DNA of 64,000 nucleotides from a virus. The translations under genes and the position numbers were made by a program. Where the stretch lies: IMG/VR virus record IMGVR_UViG_3300046373_000069, positions 29,610 to 93,609 of that record; one strand, written 5' to 3'. The notes beneath the pieces are model-generated. The model was not told where the DNA came from. It made no database searches and worked only from the letters and a program-made list of their open reading frames with translations. Positions 7,759 to 59,450 of this stretch are shown piece by piece (within the stretch, counting starts at the first letter, position 1; each line of letters starts with the position of its first letter).

Positions 7759-8549
7759 TGGCACAGCGTAAAATTGCACTTGTAATTGGATATGGACAAT
7801 CTAACGAGCGAGGTACTGGTGTAGCCCCTCGCCGCACTGCTGGCAGCGCCATCACTAACACTGACACCGCAAATAACGTGCGCCACACGTCTGTCTTTGG
7901 GCAAGCTAACGTTAGCCTTACCACCACTGCGCCTTATGTAGAGCCGTGCTCGATGTTTCAAAAACTCTCAGAGCATATTGCTCTTGAAACGGGCTGGTGC
8001 GTCGAAGTCGTCAACACGGCCAAGGGCGGAACTGCCGCCACAGACTCTTGGTGTGGGTGGGATACTGCCAATGGAAGAATTAAATCGCAAGGTGATGCTG
8101 GGTATGACCCTAGCGGGTATATTGCAGGATTTGTGAATGCTGTCAGTGCAGCAGTTGTACAGGGTTACGAGGTTTGGACTATCACAGCGGGCCATCAACA
8201 AGATATTGTGAACCTCAACCGGACGGCTGCACAAGTTATCCCGGCATCTGTACACATCCAACAAAGAGCACTGGCAGCAGGAGCCTCTAAGGTTATCGTG
8301 GGTAAAACTCCAAGGTGGATCGGTAGCCCGAAAGCTTCTGAGTGGGACGCAGGCGGTCTTATACACCAAATCGCAGACGGGGTAATCGCCAGTATTCCCG
8401 GAGCTATTGCAGGGGCCGATTTGTCCGGTAATGTAGACACCCAGCTCTGTGCAAATGATGACTTCCCTTATGTCCACCTAAACCATGCGGGCGTGTGTTG
8501 GGCTGCTGAAAAGTGGCTGAACGCCATCAAGGCCGCAAAACTGATCTAA
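7758..8549 (+). CDS. SGNH/GDSL hydrolase, sialate O-acetylesterase-like
   Basis: 263 residues. N-terminal block I with GYGQSNERG (nucleophile S15), block ITAGHQQD, and C-terminal DDFPYVHLNHAG supplying the Asp/His pair, matching the SGNH esterase fold. The likely activity is O-deacetylation of surface polysaccharide; the substrate is unknown. It overlaps the upstream gene by one base. There is no signal peptide, as expected for a virion component. Confidence 0.72.
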   Translation: MAQRKIALVIGYGQSNERGTGVAPRRTAGSAITNTDTANNVRHTSVFGQANVSLTTTAPYVEPCSMFQKLSEHIALETGWCVEVVNTAKGGTAATDSWCGWDTANGRIKSQGDAGYDPSGYIAGFVNAVSAAVVQGYEVWTITAGHQQDIVNLNRTAAQVIPASVHIQQRALAAGASKVIVGKTPRWIGSPKASEWDAGGLIHQIADGVIASIPGAIAGADLSGNVDTQLCANDDFPYVHLNHAGVCWAAEKWLNAIKAAKLI

Positions 8550-8550
8550 C

Positions 8551-8886
8551 AAAGCTGGCAGTATCTATATCTTAAAAGCGGAGTCGTGCGTTAAGGTAGG
8601 CATTACAAACAAAGAGTGTGAAAAGAGGGCCGCTGCGATAAGCAAGTCAGCAGAAGAAGCTTTTGAAGTGGTTGAGTCAGTCACGTTCCGAGACGGCAGT
8701 ATTCCCAGTAACGTTGAGCGTCAGATGCTAGCATATCTGCGGACTCGTTATAAGAACCCTTTAAAAGTATTTGACGGGTACACGGAGTGCTTTGAGGGGC
8801 TGACTGTTGATACTGCCCTTTCTCTTCTCTACGCAACATTAAAAGACATTAAAGGAAGCCATGACAATCATCGACCCGTCCACTAA
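8551..8886 (+). pseudogene. Remnant of a zinc-ribbon/GIY-YIG homing endonuclease (C-terminal part)
   Basis: The frame is open from 8545 but has no ATG; a GTG at 8668 gives only 72 residues. Translated from 8551 it reads GSIYILKAESCVKVGITNKE, then LRTRYKNP, FDGYTECFEG. This matches the C-terminus of the intact gene at 18284-19237 (FYIL, KVGVTNKE, LKTKYKSP, FDGATECFLG). The N-terminal zinc-ribbon domains are missing. It fills the space between the SGNH hydrolase and the connector gene and overlaps the connector start by 26 nt. Confidence 0.75.
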
Positions 8887-17751: not shown

Positions 17752-18207
17752 ATGGCCGTTATCACATTTAGCTCCGCTGGCACCAAAGTTTCGCTTTCGT
17801 CCGGCAAACCGACTGGTGCTCCTTCCGCCACCACCCTTTCCGCCCTGACGTACACCGAAATCGGCGGTGTGTCCGAAGTCGGAATGCTGGGTCCAGAATC
17901 GTCGGTTATCGTATTCAACCCTTTGAGCGATAATATTAGCTATAAACAAAAGGGTCAAAAGAACGCTGGTGCACTGGATTGCAAGGGTGCCCTTAACAAT
18001 GAAGACGCAGGCCAAATTCTGCTGCAAGCTGCTGAGGCTTCGCCTGAAGAGTACGCACTGAAGATTGAACTGACTAACGGTTCGACATTGTACTGCATGA
18101 TTTTGGTCACAAGTTTCAAGACGAATATCGGTAACTCGGGCCAGATTACGATGTTTGAATCGAAGCTCGAAATCAGCGGTAATGTCTTTACTCAAGCTGC
18201 TGCTTAA
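17752..18207 (+). CDS. Major tail tube protein
   Basis: 151 residues. Tube-like features: N-terminal VITFSSAGTKVSLS, GGVSEVGMLGPESSVI, and a C-terminal beta region (GQITMFESKLEISG). Strong codon bias like the capsid gene, as expected for an abundant virion protein. Good AGAAAG ribosome site. Next conserved gene downstream is the chaperone G, the usual order. Confidence 0.8.
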   Translation: MAVITFSSAGTKVSLSSGKPTGAPSATTLSALTYTEIGGVSEVGMLGPESSVIVFNPLSDNISYKQKGQKNAGALDCKGALNNEDAGQILLQAAEASPEEYALKIELTNGSTLYCMILVTSFKTNIGNSGQITMFESKLEISGNVFTQAAA

Positions 18208-18283
18208 GAGTTAGCTAGTTTTGCACGCGGGCGTTGCTGGCATTTTCACCAGCCGCCCATCCGTGCCTTTAATAGGGTGCGAG

Positions 18284-19237
18284 ATGCCGAAGCAAAAAAC
18301 TCAAGAAGAATGGTTAAATAGCATACCCAAAGAACACAAGGATAAGTTTGATTACAGCAAGGCTGTCTATACTAAGTCTCAAAACAAAGTTCTACTAACG
18401 TGTAAGAAATGCAGTACAGAATTTATGCAGCGGGCTGATATGAACACAAGAGGCGTTGGCTGTAAGGTCTGTCAACATAGGGCGCTACACGCCAGTCTTG
18501 TCCATACAAAGGAGATGTTCATTGAACGTAGCCAAGAAGAGTTTGGCGATAAGTACGGTTACGAGCTTGTTAAGTATGTGGATAAATACACGAAAGTCGA
18601 TATCATCTGTAGGAAGGAAGGGCACGGTATTTTCCAAGTCACGCCTGCCAATCTGAAGAAGGGACGACACTCGTGCCCCAAGTGTGCTGGGGAAGCAATT
18701 TCAAAAGCCCACCGTAAAACGCAAGAAGATTTCGTTGAAGAGTGTCGAGCACTGTGCGCAGAAGGCATCACGTTTGAGCACGTAAAGTACTCAGGAGATA
18801 AAACTAATGTGATGTTCAACTGCGCCACACACGGCATTTTTGATATGCTACCCGGTAACTTCCTTAAGGGGTGCCGCTGCCCATCATGTGCAAGCTACGG
18901 GTACAGAAAGGCGCTCCCCGGTAGATTCTACATTTTATCGGATGGCTACACCACAAAGGTCGGTGTCACCAATAAGGAACCTGAATATAGGGCTAAATCG
19001 GTGGCTAAGACGGGTGGTCCAATTATGGACATCATGGTGAACATGTTCTTTGCAGATGGCGCAATGCCCTTGAAGATTGAAACTGCTTGCCTTCGCTACT
19101 TAAAGACAAAATACAAATCCCCAAGTAGCACATTCGACGGTGCTACTGAGTGCTTCCTAGGTGTGGATATCCCAGACCTTCTAAATTTTATCTCACCAAT
19201 CGCATCAACCGCAGAGCTGGAACAATCCGGCCTTTAA
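18284..19237 (+). CDS. Homing endonuclease-like protein: zinc-ribbon (DUF723-like) repeats plus GIY-YIG C-terminus
   Basis: 317 residues from ATG 18284; a TTG at 18221 would add 21 residues. Repeated modules each hold Cys pairs (CKKC, CKVC, CPKC, CPSC) and a K.I.C..HG.F..TP.NL..G pattern typical of DUF723-type zinc-binding homing proteins. The C-terminal ~95 residues carry FYIL and KVGVTNKE, a degenerate GIY-YIG/T5orf172 fold. Inserted between tail tube and chaperone genes. Its C-terminus is duplicated as the remnant at 8551-8886. Confidence 0.78.
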   Translation: MPKQKTQEEWLNSIPKEHKDKFDYSKAVYTKSQNKVLLTCKKCSTEFMQRADMNTRGVGCKVCQHRALHASLVHTKEMFIERSQEEFGDKYGYELVKYVDKYTKVDIICRKEGHGIFQVTPANLKKGRHSCPKCAGEAISKAHRKTQEDFVEECRALCAEGITFEHVKYSGDKTNVMFNCATHGIFDMLPGNFLKGCRCPSCASYGYRKALPGRFYILSDGYTTKVGVTNKEPEYRAKSVAKTGGPIMDIMVNMFFADGAMPLKIETACLRYLKTKYKSPSSTFDGATECFLGVDIPDLLNFISPIASTAELEQSGL

Positions 19238-36176: not shown

Positions 36177-36719
36177 TTACATGCCGTGTCTTTCTGTATA
36201 ACCACACCCTTCTATTGACTTCGTACGAAACTCACAAGCCATTTTCAATGCAATTTCATACCCTAGGTTATCAATAGAGAAGTACTTGAATTTTTGCTTC
36301 ATGTCAACGTCACTCCATAACGCCCTCCAATACCTCCTCCCGCGCGTTTCTGTGCAGTTCACTCCGGTGACTCCGCTACGGTTATTGCTCTGTTTCATAC
36401 GGTTGCGACAATTAATTGAGTGAGTAGCAAGCCGCAAGTTCTCAATTTTGTTATTGCCTTTATTGCCATCTATGTGATCCACAAAAGTATCTTGTGGAAT
36501 ACTCCCGTTGAACATTTCCCAAATCACCCGATGAGCAACAGTTCGGTAACCCTTTACCATAACTGTGAAGTATCCAGCAGACGTCTTTCCACCTGCAACA
36601 GCACCTGCACGGTACTTCACTGTCTTACAGCCCCTACCACTATGTATGTCCACCAACCACCTCAAGCCCGTCCGAGAATTGGCATCATACACTAAGAAAT
36701 CGCTCCAGTTCACATGCAT
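36177..36719 (-). CDS. HNH homing endonuclease
   Basis: 180 residues from ATG 36719 (a GTG at 36728 is possible). N-terminal YDANSRTGLRWL, VAHRVIWEMFNG, then the HNH_3 core FVDHIDGNKGNNKIENLRLA and a C-terminal AP2-like DNA-binding part (GVTGVNCTETRGRRYWRA). It starts within the last codons of nrdA (10-nt overlap), so it sits exactly behind the reductase gene. Free-standing homing type. Confidence 0.85.
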   Translation of the reverse strand: MHVNWSDFLVYDANSRTGLRWLVDIHSGRGCKTVKYRAGAVAGGKTSAGYFTVMVKGYRTVAHRVIWEMFNGSIPQDTFVDHIDGNKGNNKIENLRLATHSINCRNRMKQSNNRSGVTGVNCTETRGRRYWRALWSDVDMKQKFKYFSIDNLGYEIALKMACEFRTKSIEGCGYTERHGM

Positions 36720-49237: not shown

Positions 49238-51307
49238 TTATTGTATCACAAGTTTTTCGGCTTCAGCTACGTAATATTCGTAGTCGATATCACCAACATA
49301 ATCTTCAATGTCGTTACAAGGCTTCACCTTCCAAGCACTGTCAATCGACAACCTCCGCAGTTCACCACCCAGTTCAAGTGGTGGCATGATCTTCACCAAC
49401 TTACCACCAGACTTGCACGGATAGTATCGACAGATGTTTTGCAGCGTAACCTCCATGCCATCATCCTGCACAAGTACCAGACTGCTGCTACGAGGAACCT
49501 TTGTGCGCAACAGGAAGTCAAACTTCTCAGTGTGGTTCATAATAAACTCACGAACGTCTGTACCATACAACATCTTAGCTTCTGCTGCCATCGGAATAAC
49601 TAACGAAGAGTGGTTTTTGTGCCAGCCCAAATCCTTGTACTCGTAGGCACCTTTGTTCTTTGTTTTACCGTCTGTGTATAGAGCGATGTAGTTGTTCACG
49701 TCACGAATAAACATCTTATCGTAGTCAGCAAACTCCAATTGCAATCCAACTTGCTTCTCCCAAGATTGACAGATGGCGTCGTATTGCTCCTTTGCCCCAC
49801 GAGGTAATGCCACAGTCACACCATCAGTATTTACCTGAATCAGTTTCAAGTTCTCAATCTCAAGCAACTGCTCAGCGAGCAGACACAGGGAAAGCTGCCC
49901 GTTGATAGTAATTGCCATCGTGTACTTCGGATCGTAGAACGGACTGTACTGGTTGTTACTGTCACCGTACACACCATTCAGAGCCAACTTCAACATTGCG
50001 TTCTCGGCGGTTTTCTTACCATACGACTTTCGCTGCTCGTACACGTCCTTGTAAATCTCACAAAAACGCTTTGAGAGGTGTTCAGGGTACACACTGTTAG
50101 CAATTGCAATGTTTGGGTACATAGAGCTAACGTCTGCGTCAATAATCTGATACGCTTTCGTCTGCCGTGCGATCTTACTTGACAAGCTGCCGTGAATTCC
50201 TCCCGTGCCGAAGTCAAATCGGAATCCATCAATTACAACGTTTAAGTTCTCAGCAACACGCCAGCATGCCCAGTAGGAATACTGAGGAACGCCCTTCTTT
50301 TTGGCCTTCAACTCCACCTTGTCAAACCACCCACAAGGATGTTCACGTTTAAACTGGTCGTATTCGGTTCTGGTGGGTTCTGCTTTCCACTTCTTCTTCT
50401 TGACAACCATTTCAGCGTACTTGGCAACGTCATCAAGCTTGTGTTCTTCAATGTCGTTGAAAACCCCCTTCGTTTCGCGGATAACCTGTTTTGCAAGCCA
50501 ATCCTTCACTGCGATGAATTCAGGGCGTTTGAAGGTGTAGTAGTCGAACAGGCATTCCTTAATACGGATAACGTCACGCTTAGTCTGATTGAGTTTGCGC
50601 TTTCCGTCAACCATTTTATACACGGGAATTCGGGATTCCTCCAACTCCATGATAAAATAGTCCTTGCCAATCTTAGTATCATTGTGATTCATAAAGTCGC
50701 GCTGATACTTGGCAGTAAGCTGTTCACGAAACTCCACTTGACTAATACTGTGATTGTAGAATGCAAGCGTCATCTTAACATCGTGTGCGTTGTACTTCTT
50801 CAGCACTTCGATTTGGTCAGACTTCAATTCCATTCCGACAGGGAAAGGCAAATCTTCGATGTTCTTCTCTCGCATATTAAATTCGAGCATCTTCAAACTG
50901 GTCATCTTCGCTTTGTTGTCGAAGTGGTGAATCTTGAAGAGGTCGATCTGCTTCACGTAACGATCTTCTGTTTTTACAGTATTAGCGAAGTCACCCTTCA
51001 TGCTTTCGATTTGTTCTTGAGCAAACTTATAGACCCTTCGAGCAATCGTTTCGCCTTTGACTGGCAGTTTGTCACGTAAAGCAAGCAGCTTGTGCAATAC
51101 CGGATAGTCAAAATTGTTTCCGTTGAACGTAACCATAAAATCGCCCTCGTTGTGAAGGTAGTCCAGACAAGCGAAAACTCGGTGAATTTCGTTCTTGTAC
51201 GGACTCACTTCAAACGTGTTCGGAAACTTGCCGTCTGCACGGATGATGCTGAAAGTGAACGTGTTTGGAAAAGTCTCGATGTCAACAATCCATTTGGCAC
51301 CTGCCAT
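49238..51307 (-). CDS. Family B DNA polymerase with 3'-5' exonuclease
   Basis: 689 residues, replicative polymerase. Proofreading motifs WIVDIET, NGNNFDYPVL and YNAHDV lie in the first ~200 residues. Palm motifs: A DADVSSMYPN, B KLALNGVYG, C VNTDGV, where Asn replaces the first Asp of the usual DTD. Its start lies 26 nt inside the preceding homing-type gene. Works with the primase-helicase, SSB and ligase encoded nearby. Confidence 0.88.
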   Translation of the reverse strand: MAGAKWIVDIETFPNTFTFSIIRADGKFPNTFEVSPYKNEIHRVFACLDYLHNEGDFMVTFNGNNFDYPVLHKLLALRDKLPVKGETIARRVYKFAQEQIESMKGDFANTVKTEDRYVKQIDLFKIHHFDNKAKMTSLKMLEFNMREKNIEDLPFPVGMELKSDQIEVLKKYNAHDVKMTLAFYNHSISQVEFREQLTAKYQRDFMNHNDTKIGKDYFIMELEESRIPVYKMVDGKRKLNQTKRDVIRIKECLFDYYTFKRPEFIAVKDWLAKQVIRETKGVFNDIEEHKLDDVAKYAEMVVKKKKWKAEPTRTEYDQFKREHPCGWFDKVELKAKKKGVPQYSYWACWRVAENLNVVIDGFRFDFGTGGIHGSLSSKIARQTKAYQIIDADVSSMYPNIAIANSVYPEHLSKRFCEIYKDVYEQRKSYGKKTAENAMLKLALNGVYGDSNNQYSPFYDPKYTMAITINGQLSLCLLAEQLLEIENLKLIQVNTDGVTVALPRGAKEQYDAICQSWEKQVGLQLEFADYDKMFIRDVNNYIALYTDGKTKNKGAYEYKDLGWHKNHSSLVIPMAAEAKMLYGTDVREFIMNHTEKFDFLLRTKVPRSSSLVLVQDDGMEVTLQNICRYYPCKSGGKLVKIMPPLELGGELRRLSIDSAWKVKPCNDIEDYVGDIDYEYYVAEAEKLVIQ

Positions 51308-51869
51308 TCTTAATCCCTTCGATAAATTTATTACAGATGACTAACATTTCTTCGTCAGAGACTTCTCCGCGCATCATGTTCACTTGCCAGATAACAAATC
51401 GCACATTGTCTTTGGTGTAGTCCTTAGTAGAGTCAACCCGATCAATACTCGGAGAGTAGGGATTCTTTGAATAAACAGGGTGTTGCGAGAAGTCAAAAGG
51501 TATCCCGGTAACTTCACAGTTCCCTAAACTGATTCTACTTTCAATCCAGTCGGCTGTGATGTCGAAATTCTCCGTATCCACAACCCTTCGACTTGCACCC
51601 TTGAAAAGTGTCTTTGCACGACCTGCGACACTCTCATAGAACTTCTCACTACACTTCTTAGCAGCTTCAGCAACCGTCGGGTTCTTACGGCGTTCGTTAT
51701 TGTAAGCTCTCTTCGCATCTCTAACGTCAGCCCTCTTGTGACGTTCTCTATTGTACGCAAGAACACAAGATTTACAACTTGGATGAAGTCTATTATAACC
51801 TTCTTTTCGCTCAACAATGTAAAAATCTTCGTCAGAAAGCTTTTCTTTACAGGTTTTACAGACCTTCAT
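51282..51869 (-). CDS. Zinc-finger HNH/EndoVII-like homing endonuclease
   Basis: 195 residues from ATG 51869. N-terminal CKTCKEKLSDEDFY and CKSC zinc finger, a basic helical middle, and a C-terminal nuclease core CEVTGIPFDF ... SPSIDRVDSTKDYTKDNVRF. The core resembles HNH/recombination-endonuclease-like phage proteins. Overlaps the small gene upstream (14 nt) and polB downstream (26 nt), so it sits between promoter and polymerase. Confidence 0.75.
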   Translation of the reverse strand: MKVCKTCKEKLSDEDFYIVERKEGYNRLHPSCKSCVLAYNRERHKRADVRDAKRAYNNERRKNPTVAEAAKKCSEKFYESVAGRAKTLFKGASRRVVDTENFDITADWIESRISLGNCEVTGIPFDFSQHPVYSKNPYSPSIDRVDSTKDYTKDNVRFVIWQVNMMRGEVSDEEMLVICNKFIEGIKNGRCQMDC

Positions 51870-52053
51870 CAAGGGCCTCCATGTCTTCCAGAAGCTTCCG
51901 CTGTTTAGCAATAACCCTTGCCTTCTTAATCTTCACAACAACCTCCGTATTACCCTTCTTCTGGTAGTACATCAGTTGTTGTGTGATTGCCTGTGTGCTT
52001 TTACGCAGAACGTGCTCGACCAATTCTTCTACAGTACACTCTTGATAGTTCAT
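51856..52053 (-). CDS. Small helical protein, paralogue of the 59207-59398 gene
   Basis: 65 residues from ATG 52053, right after a strong promoter. Pattern CTVEELVEHV, LMYYQKKG, KIKKARVIAKQRKLL is shared with the other copy. Basic amphipathic helices may bind nucleic acid. In both loci it lies just upstream of a homing-type endonuclease gene. No known family. Confidence 0.7.
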   Translation of the reverse strand: MNYQECTVEELVEHVLRKSTQAITQQLMYYQKKGNTEVVVKIKKARVIAKQRKLLEDMEALDEGL

Positions 52054-52076
52054 GTTATTGCTCCAGTTAAAGAACA

Positions 52077-52105
52077 ATTATAGCATGAACATTGCCGGAA
52101 GTCAA
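52077..52105 (-). promoter_or_regulatory. Minus-strand sigma-70 promoter (polB region)
   Basis: TTGACT (52105-52100), 17-bp spacer, TATAAT (52082-52077), 24 nt before the 65-residue gene. Expected to drive the small gene, homing gene and polB. Confidence 0.82.
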
Positions 52106-52129
52106 GCTTTATTTACGCTACACAATAAA

Positions 52130-52231
52130 CTATTTCCTACCATCCAACAACAAACACAAGAAGCCGATCACAAAGTACATGAAAGGTGTATCGAGAGCAA
52201 TCCCTGCAAAGAATGCGAACAAGGCCACCAT
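52130..52231 (-). CDS. Tiny membrane protein
   Basis: 33 residues, ATG at 52231 overlapping the upstream stop (TAATG). Almost entirely hydrophobic (VALFAFFAGIALDTPFMY then a second stretch) with a basic end. Real expression is suggested only by the coupling. Confidence 0.5.
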   Translation of the reverse strand: MVALFAFFAGIALDTPFMYFVIGFLCLLLDGRK

Positions 52232-52715
52232 TACGCGCTCCAATCCTCAGTGATTTCCGTCCAAACAGCTTCATCAAGCTGCTCCTGATGCCAATCTTTG
52301 CTTCGGCCTACCAACTCACAAGAGCCACCGTAATATCCATTACTGCTGTTACGGTAGATAATCTCGATAAATCCGTACTTCTCCCACTTGATATGGTATC
52401 CATAGACCTGCTCACACTCTTGTCGAGTGCGACCGTTCGGCGCAGGTGGCCGCCTTCCAGCAGGGCGCGGTGCCGATCTTCCTGATCAGCCATCTGATTC
52501 ACCACTGCTGGCATCTCAAGCTCGCGCACCTCCGTTACCAAGCCCCTGCCAGAATGCCCGTAGTAGCCGAACAGAATATCCGCAAACCAACTCTCCGAGC
52601 AGCAATCACCCGCTGCGTAGTAGACAACCTCCCCAGCGTCCGTGGCAAATTTCAAGAAGTGCTGATCCTCATTTACGAAGATGCCCTTAATAGTTTTTCC
52701 GATCAGTTCTTTCAT
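52231..52715 (-). pseudogene. DUF7448-like gene split between two frames
   Basis: The N-terminal part from ATG 52715 reads KELIGKTIKGIFVNEDQHF, GDCCSESWFAD and VTEVRELEMP, then continues in that frame to a stop at 52308 with unconvincing sequence. The conserved C-terminal part (GRTRQECEQVYGYHI, EIIYRNSSNGYYGG) is in the -1 frame and ends at 52231, with no start codon of its own. A GC-rich segment around 52440-52500 lies at the break. Either a frame-disrupting insertion, a recoding event or a sequence error. Start overlaps the HD gene (ATGA). Confidence 0.68.
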
Positions 52716-53230
52716 GATTTCTCCGTCAATTGTTCATACCGCTTCAAAAACTCACGTTTAGCCTTCTCCGCACCCCACGCCACAATCCTCTTAGGATACG
52801 GATCAACCCCCGCCCAGTGGCTCTCAATGCCCCTCAAATCCCGATTCTCTGCAAGGAACACTGAGATGTCTGCAAGCTTAATCGAAGGGTGCATCGGGAA
52901 GGGCAGGCCCAGTCGCCCGAACATAAACTTCTCAACACGCTTCTCAAACGCCTTATACTGCGGCAGGAGCGCCTTCAGGGGCGAGTTGATGTCGCTCATC
53001 ACTCCCTCGCTCATGTCGTGCATGAGGGCGCTCAGGGCGTGCTCAGGCTCGACGCAGTAGCTCACCAGTACGCTGTGTTGTGCGACAGAGTAGTGTTTCT
53101 CAGTAGCACCCGTGAACCTGCAAATTCGGCTGACGTTGTGGGCCAAATCTTCAATCGTGTACGTGCTTTGGTCGAAGTCTACGAAATCGAAGCAGCCTCC
53201 TGAGAGCATTGTGATGCGATGCTGGCTCAC
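52712..53230 (-). CDS. HD-domain phosphohydrolase (YfbR-like nucleotidase)
   Basis: 172 residues. Metal motifs HYSVAQHSVLVS and ALMHDMSEG (HD), followed by DINSPLK, as in YfbR-type 5'-deoxynucleotidases and phage HD proteins. The FDFVDFDQSTYTIEDLAH start is shared by phage members. May adjust dNMP pools beside RNR and ThyX. Confidence 0.76.
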   Translation of the reverse strand: MSQHRITMLSGGCFDFVDFDQSTYTIEDLAHNVSRICRFTGATEKHYSVAQHSVLVSYCVEPEHALSALMHDMSEGVMSDINSPLKALLPQYKAFEKRVEKFMFGRLGLPFPMHPSIKLADISVFLAENRDLRGIESHWAGVDPYPKRIVAWGAEKAKREFLKRYEQLTEKS

Positions 53231-53454
53231 TTCAGATTCCCCATCTCTCGCTTCAAAGCTTTCTGAAGTTTCTCAAGGCGAGCAATCTTATTGCGAAACT
53301 TTACCACCCAATAATGAGACTCTGCTGCTTCTTCTACGTTACCTGCCTTGGAGTACTCTGAGCGCTCATCCTTACGAATACGTAGAAAGACGTGCCACGA
53401 ATGCAGAGTTTTGCGGTTGTGTGCTAGCTGAGACTGGATTTCCGAAAGAACCAT
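53227..53454 (-). CDS. Small coiled-coil protein
   Basis: 75 residues with a long basic helix (FRNKIARLEKLQKALKREM). Overlaps both neighbours (4 and 31 nt). Unknown function. Confidence 0.62.
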   Translation of the reverse strand: MVLSEIQSQLAHNRKTLHSWHVFLRIRKDERSEYSKAGNVEEAAESHYWVVKFRNKIARLEKLQKALKREMGNLK

Positions 53455-53780
53455 TTCAATTTCCTCTTTAGTTTGTTCCGTGCTTTGTGATTGAATACCT
53501 TCTTAATCCTGTCGGTATCCTCTTCAAACCTGTAAGCAAGGGTAAACTTCTCACGAGCCTTGGTAAATGGCTCGTACACCCACACGTTGTCCACTTTGTA
53601 TGTTGCCACTTCAAGCAGCAGGTTCGGCTGAGGCACGTTCCACAACACAGGCTTACGAGAGCCACTTGGAGGACTCTTGCACACAGTCCCTTTCTTCGTA
53701 ATCAGAATACCAGAGCCGTCCTCGAACGACACAAGCTCCCCAGTATTCTTATCACGCCAGCGATACCTGATGGGCACCAT
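53424..53780 (-). CDS. Hypothetical protein
   Basis: 118 residues. Beta-rich first part (IRYRWRDKNTGELVSF), NLLLEVATYKVDN in the middle, and a very basic C-terminus (HKARNKLKRKLKWFFRK). Start abuts the upstream gene. No family recognised. Confidence 0.65.
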   Translation of the reverse strand: MVPIRYRWRDKNTGELVSFEDGSGILITKKGTVCKSPPSGSRKPVLWNVPQPNLLLEVATYKVDNVWVYEPFTKAREKFTLAYRFEEDTDRIKKVFNHKARNKLKRKLKWFFRKSSLS

Positions 53781-53782
53781 AA

Positions 53783-53968
53783 TCAGCCCTTTGACTTCTC
53801 TCGTATGTTGAGCATCACATCTGCAATAGCGTATGCTCCGTAGGCCATTGCCGTGATGTCCTCGATAGCTTCGTCAAGAGCTCCTTGGTCGTCAATTGTT
53901 CGTAGGGCATAGGTCGTGCCACGGATGTAAGTAAGAGCTTTGAAGGCGAATTCATCGCGAATATCCAT
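53783..53968 (-). CDS. Small hypothetical protein, first gene after a promoter
   Basis: 61 residues, helical (FKALTYIRGTTYALRTIDD, ITAMAYGAYAIADVMLN), resembling small helical-bundle phage proteins. AGGAGAAAC before the ATG, 28 nt below the promoter. Unknown function. Confidence 0.66.
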   Translation of the reverse strand: MDIRDEFAFKALTYIRGTTYALRTIDDQGALDEAIEDITAMAYGAYAIADVMLNIREKSKG

Positions 53969-53996
53969 TTGTTTCTCCTAGTTAGTTAATGCAGCC

Positions 53997-54026
53997 ATTG
54001 TACAGAAGATTTGTAGCGGCTGTCAA
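53997..54026 (-). promoter_or_regulatory. Minus-strand sigma-70 promoter
   Basis: TTGACA (54026-54021), 18-bp spacer, TACAAT (54002-53997), placed directly after the HNH gene stop, so genes below the homing insert have their own promoter. Confidence 0.76.
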
Positions 54027-54033
54027 GCGTTTG

Positions 54034-54617
54034 CTACTTCCCGTGTCGATCAGTGTAAGTCAAGCCTTCTTCGACAAGCCTTGCCATCTGCGCTTCACGG
54101 TAGTCGCAAGCCATCTTGAATGCCACTTCCTCGCCATACTTCTTCATACTAAAACTCTTAGCGCCAATCTTCTGGTCTGCCTCACGCCAAGTGGCAACGT
54201 AGTAGAACACTCCGGGACACTTTTCGTTAACATGCACACCAGTGACTCCTGTGTGGTTATTACCGTACTTGGCCTTGTTCTTGCCGTTGAGGTAGTCAGT
54301 CGAAGGAATCAGGTTAGTAATCTTGTTGTTTGTGTTATCGCCGTCCTCATGGTCGAAAATCACATCCTCCAAAGGCTTCTCCGGGTGGTGCAAGGCGTAC
54401 ACGATACGATGTACCTTAATCCCACGACTGAAGTACTTGACCGTCCAGTATCCGTCTTTACGGAGATGCCCTGCGACATCTCCTGCACTCACAACCAATC
54501 TACCGTTCCCTTCACAGTGCCTCGTAACCTTCCAGCGCAGACAACTTGGACTCGTTTCATCGTAATAAAATAGTCTGCAATGTCATCTGGAAGTGGTTTA
54601 GCAGGTGCCCTAGCCAT
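54034..54617 (-). CDS. HNH homing endonuclease with N-terminus in a different frame
   Basis: The HNH body (from a TTG at 54498) has KVHRIVYALHHPE, IFDHEDGDNTNNKITNL (HNH_3) and an AP2-like GVTGVHVNEK ... WREADQ region. Typical members begin with a YDE(T)SPSxLRW segment: here it exists in the HNH frame (YYDETSPSCLRWK) without a start codon. It is continuous with an ATG-started 5' ORF (ATG 54617, MARAPAKPLPDDIADYF) if a -1 shift occurs at a TTTT run (54567-54570). The ATG overlaps the helicase stop (TAATG). Active status uncertain. Confidence 0.72.
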
Positions 54618-56245
54618 TAGAACTCATGCCCCATTTCATCAGCAAGAATCACCTGCCAAGTGTCCTCATCAATACTGAACTCATCACATACACCCAGATA
54701 GCTCCACGGACGGTTTTTAAGAACAGTAAGACGCACGTTACCCCTGCTACGGTCAGGCATAATCTGCGGTTCAAGACCAATGATAATCCAGCTAAGTTGC
54801 TCCAGTGCCGCGCTGCCGCGCATCATTTCCTTGGCGACCTTAACCCAGTACGGCTCGTCTTCCTTGCCTTTAGGTGGCGTAAACATCTTACCGTCGCCAC
54901 GATTGATGTGTGAGATAGCAATAATACAGACATCGTTAGCAGCACAGAATGCAGCAAGCTCAGTCATCACCATGTCCAGTTCTTTTCGCTCGTTAGCGAT
55001 ATCTGATCCGCTGATAACGACACTCAAGTGGTCGATGATAATAAACTTGCATTTCTCTACAAGGTGCATATGCTTCACTTTGCTCATAAGCTCAGTGATA
55101 GGCAAGCTACCGAAGTGTCCCAACATAACAAGCTTGTCATCTTCGACAATACTATTACGTGCCGCTGCAATCTCCTCCATAGTGGCACAGCTAAGCGGGT
55201 CATTCTTGAACTTGTTGTAGTTCACCTTCAGCTTGGAAGCGACGATACGTTGCATAGTCTCAACGTTGTTCTCCTCCAAATAAATCATACCCGTGCGTTC
55301 GCCAGCCTCAATAAAGCCGTTTGCAAAAATAGAGGTAACACTACTCTTGCCAACACCGGATGGGCTAGTCAGCAGTACCAGCTCACCGCCTCGGAAGCCG
55401 TGTATCTTCTCCATAAGCTTAGGGAAGCAGCTAATAATAAGCCCAGTAATGCGCTTACGCACCAAATCATCAAGGCTGATATCGGATGCCTTAACAATTT
55501 TCTCAGCACTGTATGCGCGCTTGCCGAATTGCACAAGCTTCGCAAGCTCCTCAGTTTTACCTGCTTGCAACATATCTGATGCGTCTTTGAAGTCACCCTC
55601 AGTAGATACGACAAACAGACTTAAATTGCTTCCCATCAGAGCACTCGCAACAGCTTCACGAGCCTCGTGCCCCTTCATGATGTTCTTTGCCTTCTCCGCT
55701 GGAGTGCAATAGTCGTCATCAAAGAACAGGCACAAGGAATCGAAGGATGTCACAAATTCATTGTTGTGCAGAGTGGCCTCAACAGCATTAGCCGTGCCCA
55801 TCGGCAAGCTTGCCACGAACGGCTCCATGCCAGCAAACTTGGTGCCTTTCACTTGATCCACCATAGCCTGATAGCACGACATCGTATCAAGCTCACCTTC
55901 CGTGTAGACAAGCGTGTTACGTTTACGTTGGACACCCTCTGCCACATCCTGCCCAAACAGCTTATTGGAAATAGTGACAGCACCCACTGTAGACCAATGA
56001 TACTTCTCACTCTTATCTTTGGTGAGGTCCATCTTCTTATAACCAGTGATTTTACCCTTCTGGTTAATCGAGGGGAAATACAGCGCCTCGACAGTGCGAC
56101 CATCCGTCTCACTAATCCCTGCACGCACGCCAAACTTCTCGCACGTTTCCTTCGTAATGTTCCGCGATGGGATGTCCTTAAAAGGATACTCACCGATGTC
56201 AGCAAGCGTTTCCTTCGGGACGTATTTTGGCTCATCTGATTTCAT
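54617..56245 (-). CDS. Toprim primase-helicase (T7 gp4/Twinkle-like)
   Basis: 542 residues from ATG 56245. Toprim motifs VYTEGELDTMSCYQ and FFDDDY (about 115-190), then a DnaB/RecA-type helicase with Walker A SPSGVGKSS (~300), Walker B KFIIIDHLSVV and the SHINRGDGK motif. No N-terminal zinc-binding domain, as in T7 gp4B, so primer synthesis may be weak or may need another protein. Central replisome component. Confidence 0.88.
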   Translation of the reverse strand: MKSDEPKYVPKETLADIGEYPFKDIPSRNITKETCEKFGVRAGISETDGRTVEALYFPSINQKGKITGYKKMDLTKDKSEKYHWSTVGAVTISNKLFGQDVAEGVQRKRNTLVYTEGELDTMSCYQAMVDQVKGTKFAGMEPFVASLPMGTANAVEATLHNNEFVTSFDSLCLFFDDDYCTPAEKAKNIMKGHEAREAVASALMGSNLSLFVVSTEGDFKDASDMLQAGKTEELAKLVQFGKRAYSAEKIVKASDISLDDLVRKRITGLIISCFPKLMEKIHGFRGGELVLLTSPSGVGKSSVTSIFANGFIEAGERTGMIYLEENNVETMQRIVASKLKVNYNKFKNDPLSCATMEEIAAARNSIVEDDKLVMLGHFGSLPITELMSKVKHMHLVEKCKFIIIDHLSVVISGSDIANERKELDMVMTELAAFCAANDVCIIAISHINRGDGKMFTPPKGKEDEPYWVKVAKEMMRGSAALEQLSWIIIGLEPQIMPDRSRGNVRLTVLKNRPWSYLGVCDEFSIDEDTWQVILADEMGHEF

Positions 56246-56283
56246 GCTGTTCCCTTTGTATTTTTCGTATCCCAAGCTTCCCC

Positions 56284-56469
56284 CTACTTAACCAAAACTT
56301 CCACATTCAAATGCGCAAGCAACTCATACAATTCCTGCACAGTGTCTTTAGCATAATCTTCGTCGTAGCACGTAAAGAACGCCACTTCGCGGTCCTCTTT
56401 AGGAAGCGTGAACATTCCAGCCTTTTGCACCACCTTCACGCAATTGCCGAAACGTTGGATGTCTAGCAT
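56284..56469 (-). CDS. Small hypothetical protein
   Basis: 61 residues with AGGAGAAG before the ATG. Beta strands (REVAFFTCYDEDYAKD) and a helix (VQELYELLAHLNVEV). Unknown function. Confidence 0.64.
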   Translation of the reverse strand: MLDIQRFGNCVKVVQKAGMFTLPKEDREVAFFTCYDEDYAKDTVQELYELLAHLNVEVLVK

Positions 56470-56500
56470 GTCTTCTCCTAAGCCAAAAAGTTATCCTCAC

Positions 56501-56926
56501 TTACGCCAGAAAATGATATCCCACACCAACCTTCAGCGCCGCCTCTTCCGAGCTAAGCATCACGTCAGTTGTGCCGATGACACCTTCGCAATCATACCTC
56601 ACCCTTACCCACCAGCGCCCATACACATAAACTGGCTTACCAAGCACTTCCGTCACGTAGCAGTCGATGAGGTTCGTAGACGCCAGCGCTGCAACCCAAT
56701 CTCGCACTTCGCGGTCTTCAGATGCGATCCCTTGCACAATCTTCAGTAAGTCACGATCAAGCTTTTGGTCACGGTGCAGCTTCACAAGATGCTTCTTAGT
56801 CTCCTTGAAGTCCTTGCGACGGCCTAGCTGCTTGTACCCCTCTGCCCAATAAATGTTCAGGGTGATTTCCGACGCACGCTTTGCCAGTCGGCTTTGGAGG
56901 TTGCTGCACATAGCTTCGTAATTCAT
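56501..56926 (-). CDS. Hypothetical protein
   Basis: 141 residues from ATG 56926, overlapping the upstream stop by 4 nt; a longer in-frame extension is rejected. Basic helical N-terminus (CSNLQSRLAKRASEI, HLVKLHRDQKLDRD) and a beta-rich end (GKPVYVYGRWWVRVRYDCEG). No family recognised. Confidence 0.66.
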   Translation of the reverse strand: MNYEAMCSNLQSRLAKRASEITLNIYWAEGYKQLGRRKDFKETKKHLVKLHRDQKLDRDLLKIVQGIASEDREVRDWVAALASTNLIDCYVTEVLGKPVYVYGRWWVRVRYDCEGVIGTTDVMLSSEEAALKVGVGYHFLA

Positions 56927-57141
56927 TTTGGTTCCTTTGCTTTGAAGAAGGGTTTGTTCAGCCAGCTTGCGAAGAAGATTACATAGATCAAAGTTAACGC
57001 TAACGAAAATCCGCCAAACGCACATACCCAGAAAACTTCACGGTTGCTCATATCTGGCTTCGGATCATCAATGTTATGGGCAATCCAAGCCGCCAAGAAC
57101 CCCGACAGCAGCCACAGGGCGATGCAGAGAATAATTGTCAT
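56923..57141 (-). CDS. Two-helix membrane protein
   Basis: 72 residues from ATG 57141 (GGAGA upstream, ATGA overlap with the preceding tiny gene). Two membrane helices (IILCIALWLLSGFLAAWIA and FGGFSLALTLIYVIFFA) separated by a charged loop. Probably host inner membrane; function unknown. Confidence 0.66.
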   Translation of the reverse strand: MTIILCIALWLLSGFLAAWIAHNIDDPKPDMSNREVFWVCAFGGFSLALTLIYVIFFASWLNKPFFKAKEPK

Positions 57142-57242
57142 GTCAGTCTCCAAAAAGTGTGCCGATAAGGATCAGTGCGAACAAGACCCCCTACCACCGC
57201 TAGGAGGGTGATGCCGCCAACAGCTGCGAAGATGGTTCCCAT
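57138..57242 (-). CDS. Tiny membrane protein
   Basis: 34 residues, below usual ORF cut-offs; TAGGAGAAAC ribosome site before ATG 57242 and a stop overlapping the next ATG. Single hydrophobic helix (IFAAVGGITLLAVVGGLV). First gene below a promoter. Confidence 0.6.
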   Translation of the reverse strand: MGTIFAAVGGITLLAVVGGLVRTDPYRHTFWRLT

Positions 57243-57286
57243 TTTGTTTCTCCTAAGTTTGTTACCATTGTTGTGTTAGCGAGGAC

Positions 57287-57315
57287 ATTGTAGAGTGCTT
57301 CTGAGTTGCTTGCAA
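57287..57315 (-). promoter_or_regulatory. Minus-strand promoter after thyX
   Basis: TTGCAA (57315-57310), 17-bp spacer, TACAAT (57292-57287), 45 nt before the tiny membrane gene. Weaker -35 than the other promoters. Confidence 0.6.
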
Positions 57316-57322
57316 GGATTAT

Positions 57323-58033
57323 TTACGCATGCTCAAGCAGCGCTGCAAGGCTCACTGGGAAGTGTTGCCCCACAATGGTCTTGATACCATCAGCAACAAT
57401 TTGGCTTTCCTCCTGCGTGTGCGAGTCAAGGCGCAGAGAGAGCATCTTATGGAAAGCCTTAAGCGTGCCGCTCCAATACCACTCAGTCATCATGTCCGTA
57501 GGCAGAATAGCCCGTGCCTGTTCTGCACAGATACCCATCTTCAGTAGCTCTTCGTACGCTTCCAGAGCAACCTGAGCGGCGCTAAAGAAGATTCGGTGTG
57601 CAGATGCTTGCGTCATCTCATCAACTTCATCGCCACTACCTTGCTTCACATTCTCAGCGGCCCAACGGAAGTTCATCTCACCAAACTCTGGTTCAGTGTT
57701 GACATAGCGGCGGCTCACCTCGTTCCACGGCATGTACTCATGTTTCACAAGCTGGCGTGCTACGTAGAGCGGGGCCTTAACACGCACTGTAATGAACGTG
57801 TGGTTGAAAGGTGAGTAGTGTTTGTGCTTAGCAAGGTAGTTAATGAGCCGCTTATCACCGGCTGCTAGCACAGGTTCAAAATGTTCGTACCCGCAGTCAG
57901 GGTCATCCATTTCTGGAACACGCTCCCAGTCCCAATCACTCTCTTTGTCGAAGCTTACACGAGCCGACTGGACTACGCTCAAGTCAGTGCCGCAATGGTC
58001 AATATAGTCTACTTTAATATCCGCAATCTTCAT
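57323..58033 (-). CDS. thyX: Flavin-dependent thymidylate synthase
   Basis: 236 residues. Makes dTMP from dUMP using FAD, NADPH and methylene-tetrahydrofolate. Signature region KHEYMPWNEVSRRY replaces the usual RHRxxSxNExSxRY, keeping His, NE, S and RRY. HKHYSPFNH and the C-terminal LRLDSHTQEE also fit ThyX. Its first 20 nt overlap the end of the CapR-like gene. Confidence 0.86.
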   Translation of the reverse strand: MKIADIKVDYIDHCGTDLSVVQSARVSFDKESDWDWERVPEMDDPDCGYEHFEPVLAAGDKRLINYLAKHKHYSPFNHTFITVRVKAPLYVARQLVKHEYMPWNEVSRRYVNTEPEFGEMNFRWAAENVKQGSGDEVDEMTQASAHRIFFSAAQVALEAYEELLKMGICAEQARAILPTDMMTEWYWSGTLKAFHKMLSLRLDSHTQEESQIVADGIKTIVGQHFPVSLAALLEHA

Positions 58034-59210
58034 AATTATCCTGTTTCAAATGTTTATTTCTAACAAAGTCTACTAAGTCGTCATAGAGTTCATAGTGTGT
58101 TGCTTCTGTCTTAAACCCTTCAATGCTCTGAGGGACTACCTCAAACAGTTGTTTCAGTTCTGTTTCAATTCCTCGTGCAATATCTCCGTCAAATTTAAAC
58201 ACCTCAGACTCGGTGATCGTGCATCCGACCTTCCTTGCTCCGTTTTTGTGGTCGTTCAACCTTCTTTTAGGTGTGTTCGATATCCCGTAACCTGCAAACG
58301 GGGTTTCGCCCTCAAATTTTAACACATATAAGAAACCTGTTTTATGATCTTTGTAACCTGTTGTGTTACATTTACTGCACCACATATCGTGATTAAGATG
58401 CCATACAGTAGTCTCCCACTCTTCCTGATGCACATTGCACCACACCCGTATCGTACTGTTTGTCACAGAAGAACTCTTTTTGCCCCAACTAATAAACTCG
58501 AAATTAGGTCTATCTACTAGGAGTTTACTTACATCATACTCAGCTTGAGAATGAGTCCAATTTTGTTTGTGAGAACATCTGCAAGATTTGATGCCCTTAC
58601 CAAGACGTTGTCTGTCAGACTTGAATACTCCACTACAAAGACCTTCAGTCACGTACTCATCCTTGCTGCACTTTCCGCAGGTGTACTCCCACTGCTTTCT
58701 ACCGACTCTTTTAAAAATCGTCCCTTCGGCGAACGCTCCAGTAGACGTGAAGTCTGTGATGTACTCCTCAGTAGTTCTGCTCTTGCTGTCAGACATCCTC
58801 TCCGTCTTACAAGTAGGGCAAGAGCTTCCCTTGTCTAAAAAGCTGTACAAACGTGTGTTTGCCCAACGAACTCCGTGTTTGGTACAAGTAAGGTCTAAAA
58901 ATGTATTGTTAAACTTCCAATCTCCAACGAAGCCGTTAAAAGTGTATCCACGAGTTTGGCAAGCCCTATTTACTCTGACAACATATTGCTCTTTAGTCCA
59001 ATGTACAGCAGGGCTGCACCCACAAGGTAAAGTCGCCCTCAATATTGATTGCTTTGGCACTATGTACTCTGCCGCACCAAATAACTCAGGGTCTGTTGCG
59101 CAGGCGTGGCACTTGACACGCAACAGTCTAGAGCCGTTAGAAGCTATCGTACCGCTCCAACCAAGAACCTCCAGCTGATCACTACCCCCGTACCGTGCCC
59201 CCTCTTTCAC
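58014..59210 (-). CDS. CapR-like, zinc-binding homing endonuclease-type protein with GIY-YIG C-terminus
   Basis: 398 residues. Repeated zinc-binding modules with paired Cys (CHAC, CPTC, CGKC, CRCSHK, CSKC) of the type seen in CapR-homology and DUF723 proteins. The C-terminal ~95 residues have FLYVLKF and GYGISNTPKRRLNDHK, a GIY-YIG/T5orf172-like end. Overlaps the small paralogue upstream by 4 nt and thyX downstream by 20 nt. Likely a selfish nuclease. Confidence 0.75.
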   Translation of the reverse strand: MKEGARYGGSDQLEVLGWSGTIASNGSRLLRVKCHACATDPELFGAAEYIVPKQSILRATLPCGCSPAVHWTKEQYVVRVNRACQTRGYTFNGFVGDWKFNNTFLDLTCTKHGVRWANTRLYSFLDKGSSCPTCKTERMSDSKSRTTEEYITDFTSTGAFAEGTIFKRVGRKQWEYTCGKCSKDEYVTEGLCSGVFKSDRQRLGKGIKSCRCSHKQNWTHSQAEYDVSKLLVDRPNFEFISWGKKSSSVTNSTIRVWCNVHQEEWETTVWHLNHDMWCSKCNTTGYKDHKTGFLYVLKFEGETPFAGYGISNTPKRRLNDHKNGARKVGCTITESEVFKFDGDIARGIETELKQLFEVVPQSIEGFKTEATHYELYDDLVDFVRNKHLKQDNYEDCGY

Positions 59211-59398
59211 ATGCCCTCCAACTGCTTCATCAGCTTGCGCTTCTTAACAATCTTACGGGCTTCCTTAATCTTCTCGACCATTTCATCTACGTTACGTTTC
59301 TTGTAGTAGATCAGGACAGTTGAAATAAGCTGTGCGTTGCTTGCTTCCACATGGTCGGCCAGTTCTTCGGTAGTGCAGTTACGGTAGTCAAAAGTCAT
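59207..59398 (-). CDS. Small helical protein, paralogue of the 51856-52053 gene
   Basis: 63 residues from ATG 59398 (AGGAGAAC upstream). CTTEELADHV, LIYYKKRN, KIKEARKIVKKRKL match its paralogue. It lies between a strong promoter and a homing-type gene, repeating the arrangement at polB. Confidence 0.7.
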   Translation of the reverse strand: MTFDYRNCTTEELADHVEASNAQLISTVLIYYKKRNVDEMVEKIKEARKIVKKRKLMKQLEGM

Positions 59399-59421: not shown

Positions 59422-59450
59422 AGTATACCACAACTAGTGCTTAAAGTCAA
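59422..59450 (-). promoter_or_regulatory. Minus-strand sigma-70 promoter (thyX region)
   Basis: TTGACT (59450-59445), 17-bp spacer, TATACT (59427-59422), 24 nt before the 63-residue gene, the same distance and -35 as the promoter at 52077. Confidence 0.8.

Follow-up and report, generated by a model that had tools for sequence, protein, structure and literature searches.

Why should two homing-type nuclease genes of unrelated kinds, one ahead of thyX and the other ahead of polB, be preceded by the same kind of promoter and by copies of the same small gene? The question is raised by a 64,000-nucleotide (nt) stretch of viral DNA (hereafter the window), which comprises bases 29,610–93,609 of the 93,609-base uncultivated phage record IMGVR_UViG_3300046373_000069, and whose nearest named phages, as judged by helicase, are Pseudaeromonas phage KLEP7, Pseudomonas phage vB_PsaM_M1 (assigned by taxonomy to Ounavirinae), and Acinetobacter phage Phab24. 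The answer favored here, at a rough probability of 0.55, is that promoter and small gene form a portable module of about 250 base pairs (bp), in which a coupled leader gene, probably encoding a regulator, precedes the nuclease. It is highly probable that the module is real and moves both along with nucleases and from one to another; for a role of the small protein in regulating or aiding the nuclease the odds are about even; and a broader proposal, in which a separately inherited promoter-plus-regulator part, common to homing nucleases of five unrelated groups, would provide context-free, dosed expression and would possibly be a selfish unit riding on whichever nuclease follows, is tentative, the odds being somewhat against it. 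The cassettes themselves are free-standing homing genes of a known kind, and the portable leader module is the new part. The features concerned are the following.

59422..59450, minus strand: promoter of the thyX cassette, TTGACT-N17-TATACT with an extended −10 TG (sequence, position weight matrix (PWM) scan, promoter alignment)
59207..59398, minus strand: small leader gene of the thyX cassette, 63 amino acids (sequence, family searches, AlphaFold2 model)
58014..59210, minus strand: homing-type nuclease gene, CapR repeats and GIY-YIG-like, 398 amino acids, GTG start, 4-nt overlap with the small gene (Pfam, PHROG)
57323..58033, minus strand: thyX (Thy1-type thymidylate synthase), starting within the nuclease gene, 20-nt overlap (Pfam Thy1, E 4.7e-38)
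52077..52105, minus strand: promoter of the polB cassette, TTGACT-N17-TATAAT with an extended −10 TG (sequence, PWM scan)
51856..52053, minus strand: small leader gene of the polB cassette, 65 amino acids, paralogue of the thyX-cassette copy (sequence comparison)
51282..51869, minus strand: homing-type nuclease gene of the endonuclease VII/HNH kind, 195 amino acids, 14-nt overlap with the small gene (PHROG)
49238..51307, minus strand: polB, starting within the nuclease gene, 26-nt overlap (phrog_1252, E 1e-183)

Every element of the layout that the original prediction had described at thyX and polB is found at the position given for it, on the minus strand and with the overlaps listed above; the −10 element does end at −24, with 23 nt separating it from the ATG, and both promoters carry the TG one base ahead of the −10. 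The two nucleases had been called non-homologous, in agreement with their profile matches, since no Pfam or PHROG family is common to both: the thyX-side protein matches CapR (E 8.5e-30), phrog_681 (E 1.7e-58), and, weakly and under the cut-off, GIY-YIG (E 0.036), and the polB-side protein matches phrog_3322 (E 7.5e-25) and phrog_1035 (E 1.9e-22). The two small proteins are identical at 27 of 61 residues (44%; BLASTP E 8e-18, from a single comparison), and a search of the 93,609-base record revealed no further copy of the small gene beyond these two. In the thyX cassette, a GGAG lies in the last codons of the small gene, 5 nt ahead of the nuclease start. The original prediction further held that the nucleases govern translation of the essential gene behind them, a possibility which overlap by itself does not establish.

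According to the favored reading, homing nuclease genes would carry the module of promoter and small gene in front of them, and its strong sigma70-type promoter (TTGACA-N15-TG-N-TATAAT) would give the nuclease its own transcription, probably early in infection. The small gene would be translated first; with a Shine-Dalgarno sequence in its last codons and a stop that usually overlaps the nuclease start, the nuclease would be made by coupled re-initiation, in fixed proportion to the small protein and whatever the gene beside the landing site. The small protein would most likely bind nucleic acid and regulate or assist the nuclease operon, in the manner of a restriction system's controller gene, and the module would move with the nuclease during homing and would also be swapped between unrelated nuclease families.

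Recurrence of the small gene and its arrangement with the nuclease

Copies of the small gene were gathered by scans of IMG/VR, by profile searches of the records so found, and by a profile search of fetched loci (given here by L numbers), the neighboring genes being disregarded throughout. After exclusion of duplicates (L006, L012, the second copy in L011, L056, L057, and L065, the last judged by position and score), the survey yielded 22 distinct close copies (at least 38 bits, from the window and uncultivated phages) and ten distant relatives (14–27 bits). A homing-type nuclease gene stands directly 3′ on the same strand in 20 of the 22 close copies, all 20 being confirmed by profile match, and these nucleases fall into five groups: phrog_681 in nine cases (window thyX, L003, L007, L008, L009, L010, L032, L055, L229), phrog_99 in four (L002, L033, L054, L137), phrog_655 in four (L070, L230, L231, L232), phrog_953 in two (L001, L050), and the endonuclease VII kind in one (window polB). 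If 30% of genes were nucleases, at least 20 of 22 would be expected with p = 4e-9 under independence, a figure that serves as a guide only, the copies sharing descent. The presence of DNA polymerase I-like genes in L001 and L002, with no PolB match, places the module in more than one phage lineage.

The distant relatives differ in their neighbors, none of nine (L034, L071, L072 twice, L073, L233, L234, L235, L236) being followed by a nuclease; the tenth, L228 (E 0.005), stands outside this count. Homologues mostly lacking an adjacent homing-type gene, the pattern that the original prediction had named as telling against it, are thus found only among these distant relatives (9/9), and among the close copies the lack is confined to 2/22. 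By profile, the next genes of seven distant relatives are phrog_3360 (three), phrog_4756 (two), or without a match (two), and L072a and L235 have no convincing same-strand next gene. In L072, L071, L234, L236 (KLEP7), and L034, distant relatives stand ahead of phrog_3360 or phrog_4756 genes of unknown function, several of them with a TTGACA-type promoter as judged by eye. These distant relatives may represent the source family of the module.

Outside these sets, tblastn with five small-protein variants against 50,697 named phage records returned no match; the same search with a distant relative gave matches at E 0.2 in two Serratia phage Parlo records, where they fall within a gene some 225 codons long that lies two genes past the capsid gene. 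None of the 23 pattern matches to the small gene in GTDB contigs was confirmed, and the small-protein profile found no copy among the best 80 of 243 thyX loci, many of which may be without upstream sequence.

The arrangement of start and stop codons in the occupied copies is consistent with translational coupling. The nuclease start overlaps the small-gene stop by 4 nt in 14 of the 20 cases, and in 16 the small gene contains a GGAG no more than 20 nt from that start (at 4–8 nt in 12). Nucleases without the module at the 3′ end of the helicase gene overlap the helicase stop by 1 nt (window position 54617, and L120), so that, set against this, the module appears to take over the part of the neighboring gene in coupling and to contribute a promoter. 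Among 17 promoters, which belong to 17 of the 22 close copies, TTGAC and the TG one base ahead of the −10 never vary, the set excluding L229 and the four phrog_655 copies; in the latter a promoter-like site was seen by eye further upstream, roughly 70–100 bp before the ATG. The coding sequence is also conserved at the protein level, the proportions of synonymous (pS) and nonsynonymous (pN) differences being 0.31 and 0.028 between L013 and L050, 0.59 and 0.077 between the window thyX copy and L001, and 0.65 and 0.27 between L013 and L049, a comparison of sequences which indicates that the small protein is under purifying selection.

These features bear on the possibility that the small gene is an early host-takeover or anti-defense gene riding on nucleases, with a use unrelated to theirs. 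The strong extended −10 promoter would suit such cargo, as would the persistence of purifying selection between an occupied and a vacant copy (L013 and L050) and between two vacant ones (L013 and L049), together with the intact state of the vacant copies. Cargo would, however, be expected on either side of the nuclease and in uncoupled placement, whereas all 20 occupied copies lie directly 5′ on the same strand, mostly overlapping, with the nuclease's GGAG in the last codons in 16 of them; this explanation is consequently regarded as unlikely.

Exchange of nucleases and presence or absence of the module

The edges of the module were mapped by local alignment of 17 of the 22 copies, each extended by 400 bp on the 5′ side and 500 bp on the 3′ side, giving 136 pairs, of which 16 scored above 90. 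In 15 of these 16 pairs, similarity sets in between 67 and 33 bp ahead of the ATG, and in 14 it ends between 54 bp before and 5 bp past the small-gene stop. The outliers are L007–L009, where similarity runs from 6 bp before the ATG to 73–92 bp into the next gene, and L013–L049, which occupy the same site and where it continues. Twelve of the 16 pairs differ in nuclease group, L013–L049, neither of which has a nuclease, being counted among them. In the clearest case, L013 and L050, identity amounts to 93% over the 244 bp of promoter and small gene with no significant match in the tested flanks, and L050 has a nuclease where L013 has none; the window thyX copy, L001, and L002 share 74–78% of the promoter and small-gene stretch, with three different nuclease groups downstream. 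In a tree of 30 small proteins (69 columns, with unsettled bootstrap), at least seven changes of nuclease group are required among the nuclease-linked members, the least possible being four, and the phrog_681 label shows no more clustering than shuffling gives (162 of 500 shuffles as low); the branch that sets off the distant relatives is supported at 81/80. Exchange of nucleases behind related small genes is shown by such sequence comparison.

Such exchange is relevant to the proposal that the small protein is a cofactor or antidote, attaching to the nuclease or to its target DNA and adjusting cleavage or repair, not transcription. Its fixed 5′ position and overlap, as in two-gene modules, and its mostly basic character would agree with this role, but the small proteins of L001 and L002 reach 87% and 78% identity with that of the window thyX cassette, and yet nucleases of groups phrog_953, phrog_99, and phrog_681, respectively, follow these three. 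With three nuclease groups behind such close small proteins, specific contact with the nuclease becomes less likely, and the proposal as a whole is quite improbable.

A case of presence and absence is provided by L011 and L012, which are 97.4% identical over 7.7 kb. Ahead of thyX, L011 has the promoter, the small gene, and a phrog_99 (HNH) nuclease, followed by a divergent thyX allele that is 58–95% identical to that of L012 per 60-bp block, identity returning to 100% within about 130 bp past thyX. On the left side, the two match at 99% over 121 bp, ending a few bases before the −35 box, and at that place L012 has an unrelated open reading frame (ORF) of 106 residues; no small gene was found at the L012 thyX site, the one site tested. 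The comparison, which concerns one pair of metagenomic contigs with the window's own cassettes standing outside it, fits a joint transfer, in a single block, of the module, the nuclease, and the thyX next to them. The window thyX has a different nuclease (phrog_681) and another copy of the small gene than the thyX of L011. The same two contigs also show, at 8666–10813 in L011 and 9244–11313 in L012, that a family-A-like DNA polymerase gene (PF00476, E 5e-7, under the family cut-off) in one phage occupies, gene for gene, the place that PolB has in the other.

At polB, nine distinct relatives with 72–85% identity were compared, L138 (25%) being excluded and L136 being taken as the same stretch as L129 on the grounds that L010 and L012, which come from the same pair of records, are identical. 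Directly 5′ of polB, three of the nine (L130, L131, L137) have a nuclease of the window's kind and no small gene, one (L134) has a phrog_953 nuclease and likewise no small gene, and five (L128, L129, L132, L133, L135) have no nuclease, these last being judged from ORF lists rather than profiles. The L137 nuclease at this place has a TTGACA-type promoter directly ahead of it, as judged by eye, and past polB this locus has a small gene as well, together with a phrog_99 nuclease. That the window's lineage gained the small gene at polB would be the simpler reading of this distribution, although it is not proof.

Both sites bear on the suggestion that several nuclease families insert by preference at the 3′ end of the small gene, itself a dispersed phage gene. 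Similar small genes with different nuclease groups downstream, the two vacant close copies L013 and L049, and the distant relatives adjoining phrog_3360 or phrog_4756 genes, as ordinary phage genes would, are all in agreement with it; vacant close copies are few, however (2/22), L012 lacks the small gene along with the nuclease block at a site where it is otherwise nearly identical to L011, and three PolB relatives have the same nuclease kind without the small gene. A pre-existing landing site was set aside on account of the L012 thyX site and the polB relatives, and is very doubtful. The original prediction had left the small gene as either a functional companion or a preferred landing site; of these, companionship stands as an association (20/22, five PHROG groups, one block in L011), and the preferred landing site does not. 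On the loci compared, the small gene travels with nucleases and yet is optional and swappable.

Character of the small protein and contrary observations

The AlphaFold2 model of the small protein consists of three helices (residues 10–19, 22–34, and 38–62), with a mean confidence (pLDDT) of 94.2, or 91.6 with fewer sequences, and the isoelectric point exceeds 8.4 in 26 of 30 members. That promoter, Shine-Dalgarno sequence, and reading frame alone matter, the peptide being functionless, would account for the GGAG in the last codons (16/20) and the 4-nt overlap (14/20) but is hardly credible, pN being well under pS in the computed pairs and a confident compact fold being predicted. Helix-turn-helix profiles gave DpnI_C (E 0.024) and LexA (E 0.083), each with a single member, weak, and under the cut-off, and a viral fold search gave three uncharacterized proteins at a probability of 0.95 yet with E values of 0.5–0.7.

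Several observations weigh against the portable regulator module. The two close copies without an adjacent nuclease, L013 and L049, are at the same kind of site and both intact, and therefore the small protein may have a role of its own; a short ORF comes next at this site, followed in L013 by a replication-initiation-like gene and then by a weak homing-endonuclease match (phrog_314, E 3.6e-5). The left junction of the L011 block lies 121 bp from the end of the metagenomic contig. In the tree, all nuclease labels taken together are clustered (nine changes against a shuffled mean of 17.0, with 0 of 200 shuffles giving so low a count), and the phrog_655 members group in a single clade (98/100), so that the pairing of small gene and nuclease is partly inherited. 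Three of the four high-scoring pairs with a common nuclease group also lose similarity near the small-gene stop, which means that the 3′ edge partly reflects faster change of the nuclease and is, alone, weak evidence. The module is present at 8 of 23 CapR-type loci in 18 records (34 profile rows merged by hand) and at 3 of 18 HNH_3 places in 14 records, and so is lacking at 15 in each case. The cassette promoter type scores above 20 at six other places in the genome (PWM scan); it was therefore rejected as a unique mark of the cassette, and is probably an ordinary strong phage promoter built into the module.

The small protein itself contributes to the contrary evidence, as it has no sequence match in Pfam, PHROG, or the PDB (best PDB E 0.23) and no convincing fold match among PDB folds, the best VIA match of the model being Hha (Z 4.4, root-mean-square deviation 2.3 over 48 residues), within the common range. 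No excess of inverted-repeat operators was found in the 17 promoters (68 against 65.3 ± 3.7, 128 of 500 shuffles as high) by a dyad search that took in palindromic sites, a non-palindromic operator lying outside its reach. Since no fold or family match is convincing, binding of DNA or RNA by the small protein is something that we infer, and translational coupling, a regulatory role, and early timing are likewise put forward as probable rather than as observed.

Relation to known systems and other nuclease genes of the window

Small regulatory genes that travel with nuclease genes are known as the controller (C) genes of restriction-modification systems. The small gene resembles them in standing ahead of a nuclease and in travelling along with it, and this gene order, on the same strand and mostly with overlap, is that of 20/22 close copies; it differs in that no convincing match to a helix-turn-helix family and no operator were found here, and in that the partners are homing-type nucleases of several groups. 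In phage T4, the expression of homing nucleases is solved case by case, through the promoters of neighbors, RNA structures, and overlaps. With regard to how a newly landed homing nuclease reaches tolerable expression, the module recurs here as a standard part ahead of nucleases of different origin and moves with them. If the protein proves to be a regulator, it would represent a common control gene of phage homing elements, comparable to the controller genes of restriction systems, and the leader gene would provide a handle for finding homing elements in uncultivated phages.

According to the part of the T4 account considered here, seven homing genes are promoter-less cassettes, and the endonuclease-specific promoters are middle or late, none being early (PMC2988022). 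In the same part, the seg and mob genes of T4-like phages are described as lying next to essential genes, almost always in the orientation of the adjoining genes, with several starts overlapping the upstream gene and coupling proposed (PMC2988022). As overlaps of homing genes with their neighbors are thus described in T4, those in the window are not special to it, and the likeness extends to a nuclease beside an essential gene, on the same strand, with its start overlapping the upstream gene (PMC2988022); unlike seg and mob as presented there, the cassettes here have a sigma70-type promoter and a small upstream gene of their own, common to unrelated nucleases. For ICP1-type genes, the portion of the account drawn upon describes domain exchange within or between nucleases, islands, and placement near essential genes (PMC10448857). 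The CapR/T5orf172-type genes of ICP1 resemble the present ones in CapR repeats, in position near replication and nucleotide genes, and in modular exchange, although it is domains that are exchanged there and a separate gene with its promoter here (PMC10448857); Pfam T5orf172 is not among the matches listed for the cassette nucleases. The endonuclease VII-type homing gene F-CphI of a cyanophage resembles the polB-side nuclease in kind, and, unlike in the polB cassette, no small partner gene is mentioned in the part of that source considered (PMC6083498). A common small partner gene is likewise not mentioned in the corresponding parts of PMC2988022 and PMC10448857, and the assertion that no system of this form had been described agrees with the phage homing-gene literature as far as titles and the beginnings of abstracts go.

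Other homing-type sequences are present in the window. Two more CapR-type nuclease matches, at 18173–19162 and 8545–8826 on the plus strand, are one with an internal TAG and one short fragment, neither of which adjoins a small gene of the cassette family, and an HNH_3 nuclease domain with no such gene nearby lies at 36411–36536 on the minus strand (72.5 bits). A third homing-type gene (HNH_3 and AP2, phrog_99), which lacks a preceding small gene and has its start at the helicase stop, follows the helicase gene at 54034–54617 on the minus strand; it is broken by a frameshift, and its intact relative is found at 1876–2457 of L120.

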